Assembly: GCA_025062375.1 (NCBI GenBank)
Contig: JANXAG010000019.1
Location: 1 to 35,600, forward strand
Direction: 5' to 3'
DNA length: 35,600 bases
DNA from: Anaerolineae bacterium
Lineage (GTDB): Bacteria > Chloroflexota > Anaerolineae > SpSt-600
How positions within the stretch are numbered: the stretch's first letter is position 1; the number at the start of each line of letters is the position of its first letter. Under the pieces are notes generated by a model that saw only the letters and a list, made by a program, of their open reading frames with translations, had not been told where the DNA came from and did not search any database. Made by a program: the position numbers and the translations under genes. Below, one piece after another: positions 3,918 through 30,960 of the stretch.

Positions 3918-6823
3918 AGCAAACTAACGGGGTCCACTTCGATTTTCCAACCTCCAGGCAGGATAATTTCTTCCAGAAGAGCTTGGGGATTCGGAGCCAG
4001 GAGGATTATTTGCCAGCGGTATCGGCCCCTGAGGCGGGAGAAAAAGCAAGGAACAGGTCCTATAAGGTGGACTTCTTCCCTCTGGCCGATCAAATGGATG
4101 AGATTGCGATACAAATTCTCCGCCTTTTCCCGGCAGCTTTTTTCGCTGGAATGCTGGTAGAGGAGCCGAATTATTCCTCTCAGGGGTGGGTAATTATGGA
4201 GGTGTCTGAATTCCATTTCCTTTTTGAAGAACCCCTCATAGTCATGACGAGCGGCAAGTTCAATTGCGTAATGGTTTGGAGTGTAAGTTTGGATTATGAC
4301 TCGTCCGCCCAGGGGGCTGCGGCCCGCTCTACCCGCTACCTGCATTAGGAGCTGAAAAGTCCTCTCAGCTGCCCAGAGATCCGGAAGATGCAGGGCGGTG
4401 TCAGCCGAAATTACTCCTACCAGGGTTACATAGGGGAGATCAAGCCCCTTAGCTATCATCTGAGTTCCCACCAAAATGTCAGCCTGGCGAGAAGCAAATT
4501 TCTCTAAAATCACTTGGTGAGCATGTTTCCACACCACAGTATCCCGATCAAGCCTCAGAGTGCGAGCGCTGGGGAAGAGACGTATCACTTCATCTTCTAC
4601 TTTTTCTGTTCCTAAGCCAAAGTAGCGGATGTGAGGACTTCCGCAGGCAGGGCAGTTGGCAGGGATCTGGTAATGGCGGCCGCAATGGTGGCAGAGGAAA
4701 GAGGGAGCTCTGGTTTTGTTCCCCCTGTGATAGGTCAGAGGGACATCGCACCGTTTACATTTGGCCACATATCCACAATTTGAACAGATTATGAAAGTCG
4801 CGGTTCCACGGCGGTTCAGAAAGAGTATCGCCTGTTCTCCTGCGTTGAGGGTCTTTTCCAGGGCTTTTATCAATGTGCGGCTGAATATTCCCCTATGCCC
4901 GGCTTTAAATTCTTCCCTCATGTCTACAATTTCTACGGGAGGAAGGCCTGAGGAATAAAGATCATCCCTCTCTTTTAGGATAAAAGGCTTTTTGCCCTTG
5001 AGGTCATGGGGTTTCCAGAGGATGCGTTTGGGAAGCTCCAGAAGATGAATTTCACCCTTTCTGGCTCTATAAAAGGTACCCAGGTCAGGAGTGGCGCTTC
5101 CCAGGATAACTACTGAACCGGTGATTCGGCCCAGCTCCATGGCTACATCTCTGGCGTGGTAATAGGGCCTTTTCTGGCTCTTGTAAGAGCGATCGTGTTC
5201 TTCGTCCACCACGATAAGGCCTGGGTTAGGTAAAGGAACAAAAAGGGCTGAGCGTGGTCCTATCACTATACTTACTTGCCCCCGCCTGATCCGCCACCAG
5301 GTGTCGTAACGCTCTCCTAGGGAAAGTTTGCTGTGGATTACCGCTATCTTACCTGGGAACCGGGAGCCGAAGCGATGGACTGTCTGAGGAGTGAGGGAGA
5401 TTTCCGGGATCAGGACTATAGCCTGACGGCCCCGGCGCAAGGTTTCTTCTATTGCTCTGAGGTAGATCTCGGTTTTGCCGCTTCCAGTAACGCCGAAGAG
5501 AAGGTACGAGCAAAAAACCCCTTTTTCAATCCCTATCTTTATCTTTTCCCAGGCTTTTTCCTGATCAGAGGTTAAGTCCGGAGGGATTGTCTCCTCAAAG
5601 ACCAAACCGGAAAGAGGGTCTCTTGCCACTTCTTCCCTTACGAGCCTTATGAGTCCTGTCTCTTCTAACTCCCGAAGATGCCTGAAAGTGCATCCTGTTT
5701 CGGCGTAGAGGTCTCCGGCTGAAACCGGCTTTTTCTCGCGATAAAGGACTTCCAGGATTTCAAGATAAAGGGATAAACCCTGCTCTTTCCGGGCCAGAAC
5801 GATGGCTTCTTCCGGAGGCAAAGTAAGAAGAACTTGTTCCTCTTCCTCTACAGTTCTTACCAGGCCTTTATCCTCCAGAGCCTTTATAGCCCTTTTGGCA
5901 TCCCCGAACTCTTCAACAGGCACGGGTTCGCGAGCTGAAAGGAGCTTCTCAAGGATCGGAAGCTGGGCTCTGGCTCGCTTCTTGAGGTTTTCCACAGCCT
6001 TGGCGAGCTCTTCCTCTGTAACGGCGGGGATTAAGAATTGCCGGGAAGGTAGGATTTGAACCAATCCCTTTTCCTCAAGCTGGCGGATATCCTGGCGAGT
6101 CGAACCAGTGGCGTTCATTACATCCTTTAGAGAAGGGATGGGGCCAGCGCGCACCAGGTATTCCAGGATTTCCGCTTTCCGGGATCTCTTCCGCAGCGGT
6201 TCAAGGAGACGAAGCCATTCTTTTCTGGGGGCTACGAGGAAAGCATAGACCAGCCTTTTGGGAGCTACAATGGGAGGGGTGAGGATGGGCTGGCGGATCA
6301 CAATCCCCTTCTTCAGTAGGTTTCTCAAAGCCTTGTGCCAGCCTTTTGGCCCCAGGAATTCCTCAAGCCTTTCAGCTCTAATTTCGCCCTTTTTTCGCAA
6401 CAGGTTTAAAATAGCTTCTTCCCATTTACTGGTTGGTGCAAAGGAACTGGCTTCGGGGCTGAGGCGGAGGACACTTCTGGCTTTGCCACCTATGCCTGGA
6501 GGGGTCATGAGAGCCACACATTCGCTTATAGGTGCAAGGTAGTGTTTGCTCATCCATTCAGCAAGGCGGAGCTGATAGTGAGGCAGAGAGAATTCCAGGA
6601 GTGCAGCGATGGGCTTAACTCCTTCTACGGGGGAATGATCGCTAAGGGAGAAAATGACCCCCTGCACAAGTCTCGGCCCAAAGGGTATCAGGACACCGCG
6701 GCCTACAAAAGCCTGGGAGCGTAAGTCTTCGGGGATAAAATAATGAAAGCCAGGGAAAGGCTCGCCCCTGCGAGGCCTAAGGGGCAGGTTTACCACCACC
6801 TCGGCATAGGTCTTTTCGCTCAT
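3914..6823 (-). CDS. priA: Primosomal replication-restart helicase PriA
   Basis: The 969-residue protein restarts stalled replication forks by unwinding and loading the replicative helicase. Order: 3'-DNA-binding domain (about 8-115), an expanded winged-helix region (about 130-405), superfamily 2 helicase with Walker A GVTGSGKT (444-451), DEEH box (540-543) and GSATPD (575-580), a zinc region with eight cysteines between about 680 and 727 (CSNC, CKRC, CHHC, CPAC), then lobe 2 with QVAGRAGR (828-835). E. coli PriA is about 730 residues; the excess lies in the winged-helix region, which appears to contain four repeats. The start codon shares one base with the stop of the upstream TPR gene (TAATG), so the two are coupled. 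Confidence 0.96.
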   Translation of the reverse strand: MSEKTYAEVVVNLPLRPRRGEPFPGFHYFIPEDLRSQAFVGRGVLIPFGPRLVQGVIFSLSDHSPVEGVKPIAALLEFSLPHYQLRLAEWMSKHYLAPISECVALMTPPGIGGKARSVLRLSPEASSFAPTSKWEEAILNLLRKKGEIRAERLEEFLGPKGWHKALRNLLKKGIVIRQPILTPPIVAPKRLVYAFLVAPRKEWLRLLEPLRKRSRKAEILEYLVRAGPIPSLKDVMNATGSTRQDIRQLEEKGLVQILPSRQFLIPAVTEEELAKAVENLKKRARAQLPILEKLLSAREPVPVEEFGDAKRAIKALEDKGLVRTVEEEEQVLLTLPPEEAIVLARKEQGLSLYLEILEVLYREKKPVSAGDLYAETGCTFRHLRELEETGLIRLVREEVARDPLSGLVFEETIPPDLTSDQEKAWEKIKIGIEKGVFCSYLLFGVTGSGKTEIYLRAIEETLRRGRQAIVLIPEISLTPQTVHRFGSRFPGKIAVIHSKLSLGERYDTWWRIRRGQVSIVIGPRSALFVPLPNPGLIVVDEEHDRSYKSQKRPYYHARDVAMELGRITGSVVILGSATPDLGTFYRARKGEIHLLELPKRILWKPHDLKGKKPFILKERDDLYSSGLPPVEIVDMREEFKAGHRGIFSRTLIKALEKTLNAGEQAILFLNRRGTATFIICSNCGYVAKCKRCDVPLTYHRGNKTRAPSFLCHHCGRHYQIPANCPACGSPHIRYFGLGTEKVEDEVIRLFPSARTLRLDRDTVVWKHAHQVILEKFASRQADILVGTQMIAKGLDLPYVTLVGVISADTALHLPDLWAAERTFQLLMQVAGRAGRSPLGGRVIIQTYTPNHYAIELAARHDYEGFFKKEMEFRHLHNYPPLRGIIRLLYQHSSEKSCREKAENLYRNLIHLIGQREEVHLIGPVPCFFSRLRGRYRWQIILLAPNPQALLEEIILPGGWKIEVDPVSLL

Positions 6824-27646: not shown

Positions 27647-28699
27647 TCAAATTACTTCTATTATACCGTCTCCCTCCAAGACCTCCCCTACAATCCAGCA
27701 CCTTTCCCCTTTCTCCCGCAGACTTTCCTCAAAGAGAGGAGCTCGTTCCGGCGGCACTGCTACAAGAAGCCCTCCCGAAGTCTGCGCATCAAATAGGAGA
27801 AGCTGTTCTTCTTCCCTCAGGCTGGCCAGGAAACGTACCCAGGGATGGAAAAAGCGCTCGTTGGAGTGAGTGCCGCCAGGGAAAAGCCATTGTTCAGCGT
27901 ACTCCCTCGCCCCCGGGATGAAGGGAATGCGCTCGTAATGAAAGCGCAGGTTTACCTCACTCATAACTGCTATATCCCTGGCATGGCCCAGTAAACCAAA
28001 CCCAGTAATATCAGTAGCAGCTGAAACACCTGTCTCCTGCATTGCTCTTGCAGCATTGCGGTTGAGGCGAAGCATTACTTCTACCGCTGCCCTGACGTGT
28101 TCTTCTTCAGCTAACCCCGCCTTCAGGGCCGTGGTTATCACCCCTGTCCCGAGAGGTTTGGTTAAGAAGAGAAAGTCCCCGGGTTTAGCCCCAGCTTTGG
28201 TAATTACCTTCTGGGGGTGAACGGTACCCACCACCGCTAAGCCGTACTTGGGCTCCTTATCGTCCATGGTATGTCCCCCCACCAGTATTCCCCCGGCTTC
28301 GGCCACTTTATCGGCCCCGCCTCTGAGGATAGCGCCGGCTACTTCCGGAGGCATATCGGGGGGAAGACAGGTTATGTTTAAAGCCAGGAGAACTTCGCCC
28401 CCCATAGCGTAGACATCGCTCATGGAGTTGGCGGCAGCTATAGCCCCGTATGTGTAAGGGTCATCTACCACCGGGGCGAAAAAGTCAGCGGTGAAAATGA
28501 TGGCCAATTCTTCGTTGAGCTTGTAAACGGCGGCATCATCCCCCTCGCCAAGGCCTACCAGAAGGTTGGCGTAAGCTTCTCTTGGAAACCGGTCAATTAT
28601 GTGGCGCAGGACCTGCGCCAGGGCCTCAGGGCCTGTTTTCCCGGCTCAGCCTGCACAGGTAGCGAGGGTTGTCAGGCGAGAGAAGTCCCTCCCATTCAT
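27647..28699 (-). CDS. selD: Selenophosphate synthase SelD, itself a selenoprotein (in-frame UGA = Sec18)
   Basis: The 350-residue enzyme makes selenophosphate from selenide and ATP, the donor for Sec-tRNA and other selenium uses. Reading from ATG 28699 (GGAGG eight bases upstream), the protein runs MNGRDFSRLTTLATCAG, then UGA at 28646-28648, then AGKTGPEALAQVL, continuing without a stop through GLGEGDDAAVY. UGA falls at the catalytic Cys/Sec position, three residues before the essential lysine (K21). Without readthrough only the C-terminal 286 residues remain open. Further motifs: GGHTMDDKEPKYGLAVVG, FLTKPLGTGV and DITGFGLLGHA. A SECIS-like hairpin lies downstream of the UGA. Its neighbours yedF and DUF3343 are classic selenium genes. 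An in-frame GTG at 28714 has no ribosome binding site. Confidence 0.95.
28602..28620 (-). promoter_or_regulatory. Bacterial SECIS element of selD
   Basis: The minus-strand RNA UGGCGCA-GGUCC-UGCGCCA has a 7-bp stem and a GGUCC apical region. It begins 25 bases after the UGA, placing the apical loop about 32 bases downstream. The core GCAGGUC-UGC closely resembles the apex of the E. coli fdhF SECIS (GCAGGUCUGC), where the loop G and U contact SelB. Sequence and placement are seen directly; SelB binding is inferred. Confidence 0.8.
28646..28648 (-). other. selD: In-frame UGA selenocysteine codon of selD
   Basis: The codon encodes residue 18, in the context TCAG-U-AGK, at the catalytic position occupied by Cys or Sec in all SelD proteins. 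Flanking sequence on both sides is in one frame and SelD-like, so a stop is not plausible. It implies that SelA, SelB and tRNA-Sec are encoded elsewhere in the genome. Confidence 0.93.
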
Positions 28700-28721: not shown

Positions 28722-28958
28722 TCAACAGTTGCCGCTTTTGTCTAATTTATAAACCCCTTCAACCCTGACCCCTTTGCTTTCCAGAAGGGCCAGAAGGGCC
28801 TCCCTATCTTCCCACCGGAACCTCAGAGCCATCCCGCAATCAGAACTTATGTGGCGCGGAGTGGGTATTAGCTTGACCTCAAACCTCCCCTCTTTAGCCA
28901 CTTTTTCAGCCCTCAAAGCCCAGTTTGTAGAATGGAAGACCATTACCCCGTACTCCAC
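28722..28958 (-). CDS. DUF3343 putative Se/S carrier protein
   Basis: The 78-residue protein has the DUF3343 pattern 'MVFHSTNWALRAEKVAKEGRFEVKLIPTPRHISSDCGMALRFRW', with the conserved cysteine C41 and a second C78 at the very C-terminus (SGNC). The family occurs with selD, yedF and cysteine desulfurase genes and is proposed to carry persulfide or selenide. The start is GTG, with GGAGAGG upstream. It lies 13 bases after yedF and its stop lies only 22 bases before the selD ATG. Confidence 0.85.
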   Translation of the reverse strand: MEYGVMVFHSTNWALRAEKVAKEGRFEVKLIPTPRHISSDCGMALRFRWEDREALLALLESKGVRVEGVYKLDKSGNC

Positions 28959-28971
28959 AGCTTCCCTCTCC

Positions 28972-29553
28972 TCAAAGGCTCAGGACTTTCCCAGCTCCCA
29001 TAAGTTTCTCAGCAATAGAGTACATGTTGGAAATTGATCCCACTGCCACTTTATCTGTAAGGCCGAAATAGTTCAGGCATGTTCCACAAATGAGGATCTC
29101 CACCCCTTTCTCCTCCAGCGCCTTTAAATCCTCTATGACCGGCGACCCTTCCACGGTAAGTTTCACCCCGGTATTAATGAAAATGATGGCCTCGGGCAAT
29201 GGGTCCACCTCGTTCAAAACGTGCAGGAAACTTCGGATGAGGACTTCCTGTAGCTCCTCAGGTCCTCTTCCTATCCCGGAAGCAGGAATTAGAATAACCG
29301 CAGGGCCTGCTGGAGGGGTGCCGGCAGAAGCTCGCTCTGGCTCTACCTCCCGACGCAAATGGATATAAATCCCATCGCTTTTCTCATCCACTGTTACAGT
29401 AAAACCCTGTTTGCGCGCAAGGTGCGAGATGTTCTCTCTGGCTGTAACGTTGTCCACGATAACTATCAATTCGCCGGCTTCAGCCATGGCTTTGCGGGTG
29501 AGTAGAACTGGCTGAGGGCAGGATAGACCCCTTGCGTCAATTACCTTTGCCAT
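28972..29553 (-). CDS. yedF: Selenium-associated sulfurtransferase-like protein YedF (TusA-DsrE fusion)
   Basis: The 193-residue protein fuses a TusA-like domain (1-70, C12 in SCPQP, the persulfide or selenide carrying cysteine) to a DsrE-like domain (about 85-193) with 'ICGTCLNYFGLTDKV' (C156, C159). This is the architecture of the selenium-metabolism YedF proteins. The ATG at 29553 has a strong AAGGAGGTGA ribosome binding site lying in the end of the desulfurase gene. It probably takes selenium from the upstream desulfurase and passes it toward SelD. Confidence 0.93.
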   Translation of the reverse strand: MAKVIDARGLSCPQPVLLTRKAMAEAGELIVIVDNVTARENISHLARKQGFTVTVDEKSDGIYIHLRREVEPERASAGTPPAGPAVILIPASGIGRGPEELQEVLIRSFLHVLNEVDPLPEAIIFINTGVKLTVEGSPVIEDLKALEEKGVEILICGTCLNYFGLTDKVAVGSISNMYSIAEKLMGAGKVLSL

Positions 29554-29556
29554 AGC

Positions 29557-30711
29557 TCACCTCCTTGCGATTTTCTTTATGGCTTCTATAGCTTTTTCCA
29601 CTTCTTCTACCGTATTGAAAAAGCCTATGGAGAAGCGCACTGTGCCCTTCGGAAAAGTACCCATGGTCCTGTGGGCAGACGGGGCACAATGAAGGCCAGG
29701 CCTGCACATTATCCCGAATTCTTCATCTAAGGCAAAAGCTACATCAGATGGTTCTAATCCTTCCACGTTGAAGGAAACGATTCCTATCCTCAGGGAAAGA
29801 TCTGAAGGGCCATAGAGCCTGACCCTTTCAATGGAAGAGAGGCCTTCCAGCAGGAGAGCGGTGAGCCGCAATTCGTGGCAGCGGATTTCTTCAACCCCTC
29901 TTTCCAGTATAAACCGGACCCCCGCTCCTAAGCCTGCAAGGCCTGCTGCGTTTAAAGTCCCGCTTTCGTATTTATCGGGCAGGAAATCAGGCTGCTCTTC
30001 CAACTCGCTCCGGGAACCAGTACCACCTCGTTTTAGAGGTTTTAACTCCTCCAGAGGAACCCTTGGCCCGATGTAGAGGCCTCCAGTTCCGGTGGGGCCG
30101 AGAAGGCTCTTGTGGCCGGTAAAAGCTAGAAAATCTATGCCATCGGCTTCTACATCAATGGGATGGGCTCCGGCTGTCTGAGCGGCATCCACCAGAAGGT
30201 ATGCCCCATACTGGCGAGCGAGTTTCCCGGCTTCCCTTACCGGCAAAATCGTCCCGGTGACGTTGGAGGCATGGTTCAGAACTATAAGGCGAGTGCTGGG
30301 ACGTATGGCTCTTTCCAGATCCACTGGGTCAAGCAAGCCCTCAGGGGAACACTTGAGCACTGAGATTTCAACCCCATTCTTCTCCAGGGCCCGCAGGGGC
30401 CGCATCACTGAATTGTGCTCCATGGAGCTGGTTATTACGTGATCCCCTGGGCGGAGGAAACCCGTAAGGACCAGGTTCAGCATCTCGGTAGCATTGTGAC
30501 CGAAGACTATGCGGAGAGGATCGGATATGCCGAAGAGTTCAGCCAGGGCTTCTCTCGTTTCGTAGACAATTCGGCCGGCCTCTACTGATAGGCGGTGCCC
30601 GGAACGACCAGGATTAGCTCCAACTCTGGTGAGAAAACGAACTATTGCTTCTACCACCTGAGGTGGTTTAGGGAAAGAAGTGGCGGCGTTATCAAGGTAA
30701 ATAATGCTCAT
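29557..30711 (-). CDS. Cysteine desulfurase / selenocysteine lyase-like enzyme (selenium cluster type)
   Basis: The 384-residue class V aminotransferase-fold enzyme has the PLP lysine K201 (AFTGHKSLLGP), the PLP-ring contact 'SSMEHNSVMRPL' (95-106), 'VDAAQTAG' (174-181) and the catalytic cysteine C342 in RPGLHCAPSAH. It belongs to the EGP-1-like desulfurase group encoded near selD, and probably mobilises Se (or S) from Sec (or Cys). The longer frame from 30741 lacks a ribosome binding site; ATG 30711 has GGAGGAG immediately upstream. That ribosome binding site lies in a 13-bp hairpin of a structured leader, so translation is likely controlled. Confidence 0.92.
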   Translation of the reverse strand: MSIIYLDNAATSFPKPPQVVEAIVRFLTRVGANPGRSGHRLSVEAGRIVYETREALAELFGISDPLRIVFGHNATEMLNLVLTGFLRPGDHVITSSMEHNSVMRPLRALEKNGVEISVLKCSPEGLLDPVDLERAIRPSTRLIVLNHASNVTGTILPVREAGKLARQYGAYLLVDAAQTAGAHPIDVEADGIDFLAFTGHKSLLGPTGTGGLYIGPRVPLEELKPLKRGGTGSRSELEEQPDFLPDKYESGTLNAAGLAGLGAGVRFILERGVEEIRCHELRLTALLLEGLSSIERVRLYGPSDLSLRIGIVSFNVEGLEPSDVAFALDEEFGIMCRPGLHCAPSAHRTMGTFPKGTVRFSIGFFNTVEEVEKAIEAIKKIARR

Positions 30712-30880
30712 TTCTCCTCCCCAAGCCCTGGCGTCTCCCACCCTTCAGGCCTGGGGAGGCTTTGAGGAGCTAAAGGGGGGAACCACCTCCCCGGCTCGCA
30801 GAGCCGTCCGGGTGGGTTAAAATATAAAGCCGGGAATCCCGGCGCATCACGTGCGCCTGCCTTTCATCCCGGCCTCAAAG
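30712..30880 (-). ncRNA. Candidate structured leader (riboswitch-like) upstream of the selenium operon
   Basis: Minus-strand RNA, in order. Stem P1 pairs CUUUGAGG (30873-30880) with CCUCAAAG (30760-30767). P1 encloses arm P2, CCGGGA/UCCCGG (30867-30872 and 30830-30835) topped by GGCGCA-CGUGA-UGCGCC (30841-30857), and arm P3, AACC(C)ACC/GGUGGUU (30781-30818) topped by CGGCUC-UGC-GAGCCG. Immediately after P1, CCUCCCCAGGCCU (30747-30759) pairs with GGGCUUGGGGAGG (30716-30728), 13 bp with two G-U, hiding the SD. P3 contains a second GGGGAGG (30786-30792), a competing partner for CCUCCCC. I recognise no known class. Structure is predicted by eye. Confidence 0.6.
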
Positions 30881-30932
30881 GGTTCAAAAAATTATAAACT
30901 TAAGGATCATCTGAACTCTCCCTCGGGGGCTA

Positions 30933-30960
30933 ATTATATCCAACCCCTCAGGCAAGTCAA
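30933..30960 (-). promoter_or_regulatory. Promoter of the selenium operon
   Basis: On the minus strand, TTGACT (30955-30960) and a perfect TATAAT (30933-30938) are separated by 16 bases. Transcription would start near 30926, giving a leader of about 215 bases before the desulfurase ATG, long enough to hold the structured element. A second TATAAT (30891-30896) has no good -35. Confidence 0.65.

Follow-up and report, generated by a model that had tools for sequence, protein, structure and literature searches.

The desulfurase operon and its leader

The window, that is, the whole stretch of 35,600 nucleotides of Anaerolineae DNA that was analyzed, carries on its minus strand an operon in which profile matches give the order desulfurase, YedF, DUF3343, SelD. 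Reading from 30960, the operon is preceded by a promoter and then by a leader RNA of about 215 nt that separates the promoter from the desulfurase gene. The features are the following:

30933 to 30960, minus strand: promoter TTGACT-16-TATAAT (11 of 12 consensus positions matched; 1 found versus 0.2 expected in shuffled sequences)
29557 to 30711, minus strand: cysteine desulfurase/selenocysteine lyase-like gene (TIGR01977; related to SclA NF040779, with a score below the NF040779 cut-off)
28972 to 29553, minus strand: yedF (TIGR03527)
28722 to 28958, minus strand: DUF3343 gene, Se/S carrier-like (PF11823)
27647 to 28699, minus strand: selD (TIGR00476), a selenoprotein gene whose in-frame UGA lies at 28648-28646 and whose SECIS has its loop, GGUCC, at +32

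Promoter, leader length, and gene content had all been read in the same way in the original prediction, which took the leader for a metabolite-binding riboswitch of no known class. The leader of the window folds at -96.1 kcal/mol versus a shuffle mean of -81.6 kcal/mol (z = -2.68). A scan of the window with Rfam gave no match at the gathering score, more permissive scans being at chance level or empty, which upholds the part of that prediction concerning known classes; likewise, 0 of 20 related loci matched Rfam at the gathering score. The UGA of the window's selD lies in the context ATCAGUAGKTGP, and the mechanical ORF call begins downstream, at TTG 28507, giving a truncated protein.

A leader reading frame with two in-frame UGA codons

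Two features of the leader had escaped the original prediction: its strand is a reading frame, and the arm at 30857-30841 is a SECIS-like hairpin. In the following list, types A and B denote families of leaders that are described further below:

30916 to 30924, minus strand: Shine-Dalgarno (SD)-like GAGGGAGAG ahead of the leader ORF, read from the sequence
30770 to 30910, minus strand: leader ORF, 46 codons followed by a UAG, with two in-frame UGAs, MILKFIIF-U-TL-U-GRDERQAHVMRRDSRLYILTHPDGSASRGGGSPL*
30884 to 30886, minus strand: UGA 1, proposed selenocysteine codon (UGA throughout type A and type B leaders)
30875 to 30877, minus strand: UGA 2, likewise proposed to encode selenocysteine (replaced by UGC in L095, a leader of type B)
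30841 to 30857, minus strand: SECIS-like hairpin GGCGCA-CGUGA-UGCGCC (predicted fold; loop 32 nt past UGA 1; compensatory change in G002)
30829 to 30873, minus strand: outer arm GCCGGGA/UUCCCGGC around the SECIS-like hairpin (predicted fold and relatives)

The frame runs from the ATG at 30910 to the UAG at 30772-30770 (ATG ATC CTT AAG TTT ATA ATT TTT TGA ACC CTT TGA GGC CGG ... CTT TAG, 30910-30770), and its minus-strand translation reads MILKFIIF-UGA-TL-UGA-GRDERQAHVMRR...SPL-UAG. As expected of a leader-peptide attenuator, it is a short ORF with an SD and a start codon of its own. The pattern that defines a SECIS, namely, an in-frame UGA, a loop 16 to 37 nt downstream, and a G as the first or second base of the loop, is present in the window as well as in the terminator-bearing family described below. 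The hairpin of the window's own selD, GGCGCA-GGUCC-UGCGCC, has a stem identical to that of the leader hairpin, and its loop likewise lies at +32. The type A loop, CGUGA, differs from the GGU type of the terminator leaders, in which the loop is located at +17 to +19 from the UGA and mostly reads GGUY.

SelB and a tRNA-Sec with the anticodon UCA are encoded in the window's genome. Each was found above the cut-off in 8 of 9 genomes, including that of the window; in the relative G002, whose genome is incomplete, SelB is represented by a fragment only. Since SelB is common across the class (254 of 317 genomes, 80%), its presence is necessary but not discriminating. Selenocysteine insertion at the leader UGAs is predicted.

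Related leaders upstream of the same desulfurase gene

Type A consists of four leaders (the window, G001, G002, and G144), each located 5' of the same desulfurase gene. The start codon, both UGAs, and the UAG are retained in G001, from the same genus (81% identical DNA), and in G002, from the same family (73%). The frame and both UGAs are also retained in G144, and the SECIS-like hairpin persists in these three relatives. From the start codon to the UAG, all gaps in the type A alignment measure 3 nt; just past the UAG, they measure 1 to 2 nt. The leader of G144, which belongs to a different family, was matched by the covariance model at E 7.5e-11 and reads YRLLI-UGA-KA-UGA-SRDIGEAHVMRR. The same gene follows, there not adjacent to selD or yedF, thus indicating that the association is with the desulfurase leader itself. 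No amino acid constraint was seen in type A (pN/pS of 1.46 from three close sequences, a size at which the test is uninformative), and the coding status of these leaders therefore rests on the frame, the gaps, and the UGAs.

With covariance model R1, no fifth clear type A leader was found in 396 genomes, and weak matches in G024, G074, and G114 were judged to be chance. A G144-order search added no type A leader, and where short pieces of the leader matched other parts of G000, the matches lay within or beside unrelated genes. The original prediction had built the leader around a junction closed by a helix, P1 (CUUUGAGG/CCUCAAAG). P1 can pair in the window, G001, and G002, but it is absent from the minimum-energy fold and displays no two-sided changes, and we did not retain it as the main architecture. 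A compensatory change did appear in the SECIS-like hairpin of G002.

A hairpin predicted to hide the desulfurase Shine-Dalgarno sequence

Downstream of the SECIS-like hairpin, three segments could compete for pairing:

30786 to 30792, minus strand: segment 2, GGGGAGG within the leader ORF, an SD duplicate complementary to the anti-SD (duplex versus shuffles, P = 0.068 in the window and P = 0.014 in G144)
30748 to 30760, minus strand: segment 3, anti-SD arm GCCUCCCCAGGCC, starting 9 nt past the UAG
30716 to 30728, minus strand: segment 4, desulfurase SD arm GGGCUUGGGGAGG (predicted fold)

In the predicted fold, the anti-SD arm and the SD arm form a 13-bp hairpin that sequesters the desulfurase SD, and the anti-SD CCUCCCC (30759-30753) can alternatively pair with the second GGGGAGG (30792-30786). 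Both the stem and the duplicate motif had been noted in the original prediction and were recovered here. The duplex of segments 2 and 3 barely exceeds shuffles in the window; that of G144 does better. What remains of the switch proposed earlier is a cis-acting competition for the anti-SD, tied to selenium and belonging to no Rfam class, but not its metabolite ligand. Judging from the sequence, the window variant most likely has a translational output in which segment 2 is the GGGGAGG in the ORF, segment 3 the anti-SD, and segment 4 the SD.

Folding with a ribosome-sized mask, a crude test of how the position of the ribosome affects pairing, left the SD hairpin of the window closed in all states. 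G002 and G144 shifted the opposite way, their SD hairpins opening. At the G002 locus (L052, about 3960-4000), the SD freed from the hairpin starts an extra 14-codon ORF, MFPQVSAPYVEVAL, which overlaps the desulfurase start (ATGA).

Leaders with an intrinsic terminator

The loci compared were 80 around close desulfurase relatives, plus upstream regions from 79 genomes of the class; because they were sampled around one gene family, distribution figures apply to that set. Most genomes are metagenome assemblies, all results are computed, and P values are indicative, since rows are related. In nine of these leaders (L059, L077, L102, L104, L118, L119, L157, L160, and L178), an intrinsic terminator lies between the leader ORF and the operon. 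The UGA is located nine codons past the start in 9/9, the next in-frame stop follows 63 to 81 nt past the UGA, and the terminator lies 25 to 48 nt further. In all nine, the ORF ends in a segment that can pair with the 5' arm and loop of the terminator (single P values of 0.002 to 0.013), and the combined P value for this antiterminator duplex is 3e-13, which overstates its strength, the rows being related. The 2:3 and 3:4 helices of this family are mutually exclusive. In the nine-leader alignment, two-sided changes were found at 5/7 pairs of the SECIS, 7/11 of the antiterminator, and 6/11 of the terminator, compared to at most two such pairs in any slid control.

Moving the mask from the UGA to the stop raised the terminator probability from 0.32 to 0.99 in L077, from 0.17 to 1.00 in L104, from 0.00 to 1.00 in L119, and from 0.00 to 0.99 in L157. 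The remaining 5/9 did not switch, the probability staying high in L059, L102, L118, and L178 and low in L160; masking lowered the terminator in none of the nine (0/9). Codons past the UGA showed little amino acid constraint in this group (pN/pS of about 0.85). Two additional terminator-type leaders, L239 and L243 (in G105 and G081), contain two UGAs one codon apart (HHR-UGA-I-UGA versus HRRT-UGA).

Type B and Deltaproteobacterial leaders

A separate family, type B (L067, L072, L074, and L095), reads MTWNRYHSIPFT-UGA-AG-UGA-SR.... In L095, the second UGA is UGC, a Sec-to-Cys change, which is the usual exchange, and in L072 the frame shifts past the UGAs. Applied to type A, the type B model gave weak matches at the corresponding place (L053 at E 0.001, L051 and the window at E 0.07 to 0.17). 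A search with this model (R2) gave no match in 400 genomes of the phylum, a set that apparently contained no type B genomes. At the L072 locus (6103) and in L170, a second short ORF, MKHHYYMLFGLLQRMD-UGA-MT-UGA, with a SECIS-like hairpin downstream, is found at the same locus ahead of a gene.

We also scanned mechanically for short intergenic ORFs that carry an SD and have a SECIS-like hairpin between them and the gene downstream. The stop codon was UGA in 44 cases, UAA in 2, and UAG in 3. About 17 of the 44 UGA cases are selD N termini and about 5 look spurious in our judgment; the others are leaders of yedE, desulfurase, or selD genes. Among the leaders is a Deltaproteobacterial family, MGKLQTPLSLxU (L084, L087, L088, L090, and L098), in which pN/pS is 0.24 before the UGA (>1 in the other frames) and 0.85 after it. 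Constraint before the UGA and none after it is the pattern expected of a leader rather than of a working selenoprotein. These leaders are apparently of the SD-hairpin (translational) type. Written more generally, the same five loci read MGK(L/P)(Q/P)TP(L/F)S..U, the UGA being followed by purine-rich repeats that resemble an SD, and lie 5' of yedE or other selenium genes.

Survey of the class with the terminator-type model

Covariance model R3, derived from the nine terminator-bearing leaders, gave about 39 matches at E <1e-6 in 396 genomes of the class, some of them being the training loci or their species. In 40 R3 loci, the first in-frame stop was UGA in 37, UAA in 0, and UAG in 1, with no call in 2. 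Since UAA and UAG would be common were any stop enough, these counts argue that UGA itself matters. No in-frame UGA is present in L249. The gene 3' of the leader is yedE in most cases (for G001, YedE was identified by a TIGR04112 match) and otherwise a desulfurase gene, selD, or yedF. R3 does not detect type A leaders, and we therefore group the terminator family with types A and B by design rather than by proven descent.

A few R3 leaders precede other genes. L260 (G050:C169) lies 5' of a relative of a putative selenate ABC transporter binding protein (TIGR04553, 242.7 bits versus a cut-off of 250), and L230 (G086:C68) lies 5' of a gene for a TIM-barrel protein weakly similar to CbiR. Downstream of L259 (G367:C323) are a PPC-domain-like gene and one for an ECF transporter S component; the latter resembles the CD3073 family, below the family cut-off, and is a candidate new selenium transporter.

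A putative selenocysteine attenuator

We consider it highly probable that the leader of the window is a selenocysteine attenuator, that is, a ribosome-mediated device that would sense Sec-tRNA(Sec). A ribosome would initiate on the short leader ORF and meet a UGA within 8 codons and a second one 6 nt on. With SelB and Sec-tRNA(Sec) available, the UGA would be decoded as selenocysteine, and the ribosome would cross the 3' half of the ORF to the stop before the regulatory hairpin; when they are lacking, it would terminate or stall at the UGA. The outcome would set the pairing among segment 2 (the 3' half of the ORF), segment 3 (the middle), and segment 4 (the output). In many relatives, 3:4 would be the intrinsic terminator and 2:3 the antiterminator, while in the window 3:4 would hide the SD. 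Comparison of the leaders supports an ORF that contains UGA, the SECIS-like hairpin, all three helices, and the association with selenium genes; actual readthrough and the direction and size of the effect are inferred. More broadly, such attenuators probably form a widespread class in Chloroflexota and Deltaproteobacteria. Its members would sense selenocysteine by attempting to recode a UGA within a leader peptide, would act on either transcription or translation, and would govern the uptake and trafficking of selenium and the synthesis of selenophosphate.

Other explanations start from the same features. The conserved structured leader, the buried SD, and the competing pairing would also suit a riboswitch binding a selenium, sulfur, or cofactor ligand, as originally predicted. 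However, what is conserved is a start codon, in-frame UGAs within an ORF whose gaps measure 3 nt, a SECIS-like hairpin at the spacing of selD, and a stop codon, and the leader families share no aptamer core, Rfam being blank even at permissive thresholds; we thus rejected this reading as very improbable. Since what is conserved is typical of a translated leader, and since the helices expected of an attenuator covary in the related terminator-type leaders, we take charged Sec-tRNA(Sec)/SelB, read via the ribosome, and not an aptamer ligand, to be the most likely signal. If SelB, which is encoded in the genome, regulated directly by binding the SECIS-like hairpin of an untranslated sel-operon leader, as reported for E. 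coli selAB, there would be no need for a start codon, a UGA in frame, an ORF left open over segment 2, or a fixed position of the stop, yet all of these are kept, and we regard this as unlikely. It is equally unlikely that the leader ORF encodes a genuine small selenoprotein with a UxxU/UxxC redox motif, the hairpin being incidental or a modest control element. UxxU does occur in both type A and type B, with C in place of the second U in L095, but codons after the UGA are nearly unconstrained (pN/pS of about 0.85 for both the Deltaproteobacterial and the terminator group), leaders of the terminator group mostly contain a single U without a partner Cys, and in 9/9 terminator leaders the frame stops next to the antiterminator.

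For the selenocysteine attenuator that we favor, the direction of the output has to be considered separately. In terminator-type leaders, the anatomy implies that readthrough would occlude the antiterminator, turning the operon off, so that plentiful selenocysteine would mean off and scarcity on. For the window, we lean toward the same sign, plentiful selenocysteine turning the operon off, in line with these leaders and with the hairpin remaining closed in the calculation. The opposite output, in which a ribosome reaching the UAG opens the SD hairpin and selenocysteine turns the operon on, is the less likely of the two but a real possibility. Only 9 nt separate the UAG from the anti-SD arm, compared to 25 to 48 nt from stop to terminator in the terminator leaders, and a terminating ribosome, which would also contact the base of the SD hairpin, might therefore open it; moreover, masked folding opened the hairpins of G002 and G144. 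As masked folding keeps the hairpin of the window closed and moves those of G002 and G144 oppositely, it does not fix the direction. A selenocysteine-reading leader in the window is thus better supported than the sign of its effect.

Comparison with known systems

How bacteria sense their selenium status is poorly known. A comparative genomic study (PMC5322559) found the selenium regulatory network to be not fully understood and named a LysR-type factor as a candidate; the term "leader" is absent from it. In a review (PMC9312934), the terms "attenuat" and "riboswitch" are absent, and PMC8124441 concerns a different selB-selC overlap. Our search of the open-licence literature, in which a subscription paper could be missed, turned up nothing of this kind, whether among selenium riboswitches, selenocysteine leader peptides or attenuation, selAB leaders with a SECIS, or SelB-linked upstream ORFs. 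If our reading is correct, a leader that uses trial translation to gauge Sec-tRNA(Sec) would sense the end product directly, with no dedicated regulatory protein. It would also provide a genome-search tool for new selenium genes, R3 already pointing to genes related to a putative selenate transporter and to an ECF S component, and annotation pipelines, which halt at UGA, would be overlooking a whole class of leader peptides.

Riboswitches that sequester an SD (Rfam cis-regulatory families) have a buried SD and an alternative pairing in common with the window leader; here, however, there is no Rfam match and no evidence of an aptamer, and a translated leader is found instead. With bacterial selenoprotein genes, including selD of the same operon, the leader shares the UGA, the loop at +32, and the stem GGCGCA/UGCGCC, but its product would be a peptide 30 to 50 residues long, with little constraint after the UGA. 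The E. coli selAB leader, in which a SECIS-like element is controlled by SelB, likewise places a SECIS-type hairpin ahead of selenium genes. It differs in that here the hairpin comes after an in-frame UGA; to our knowledge, selAB has neither a leader ORF with a UGA nor an attenuator. Close parallels are the ribosome-mediated trp and his attenuators of amino acid operons and the translational ermC attenuator, which, as here, combine a short leader ORF with informative codons, a choice between 2:3 and 3:4 pairing, and a terminator or SD-sequestering output. We know of no earlier attenuator in which the informative codon is a recoded stop, and the leader described here would be the first. In the trp, his, and ermC systems, the alternatives are fast and slow decoding of sense codons, whereas here the informative codon would be a stop recoded by SelB and a SECIS, and the alternatives would be readthrough and termination.
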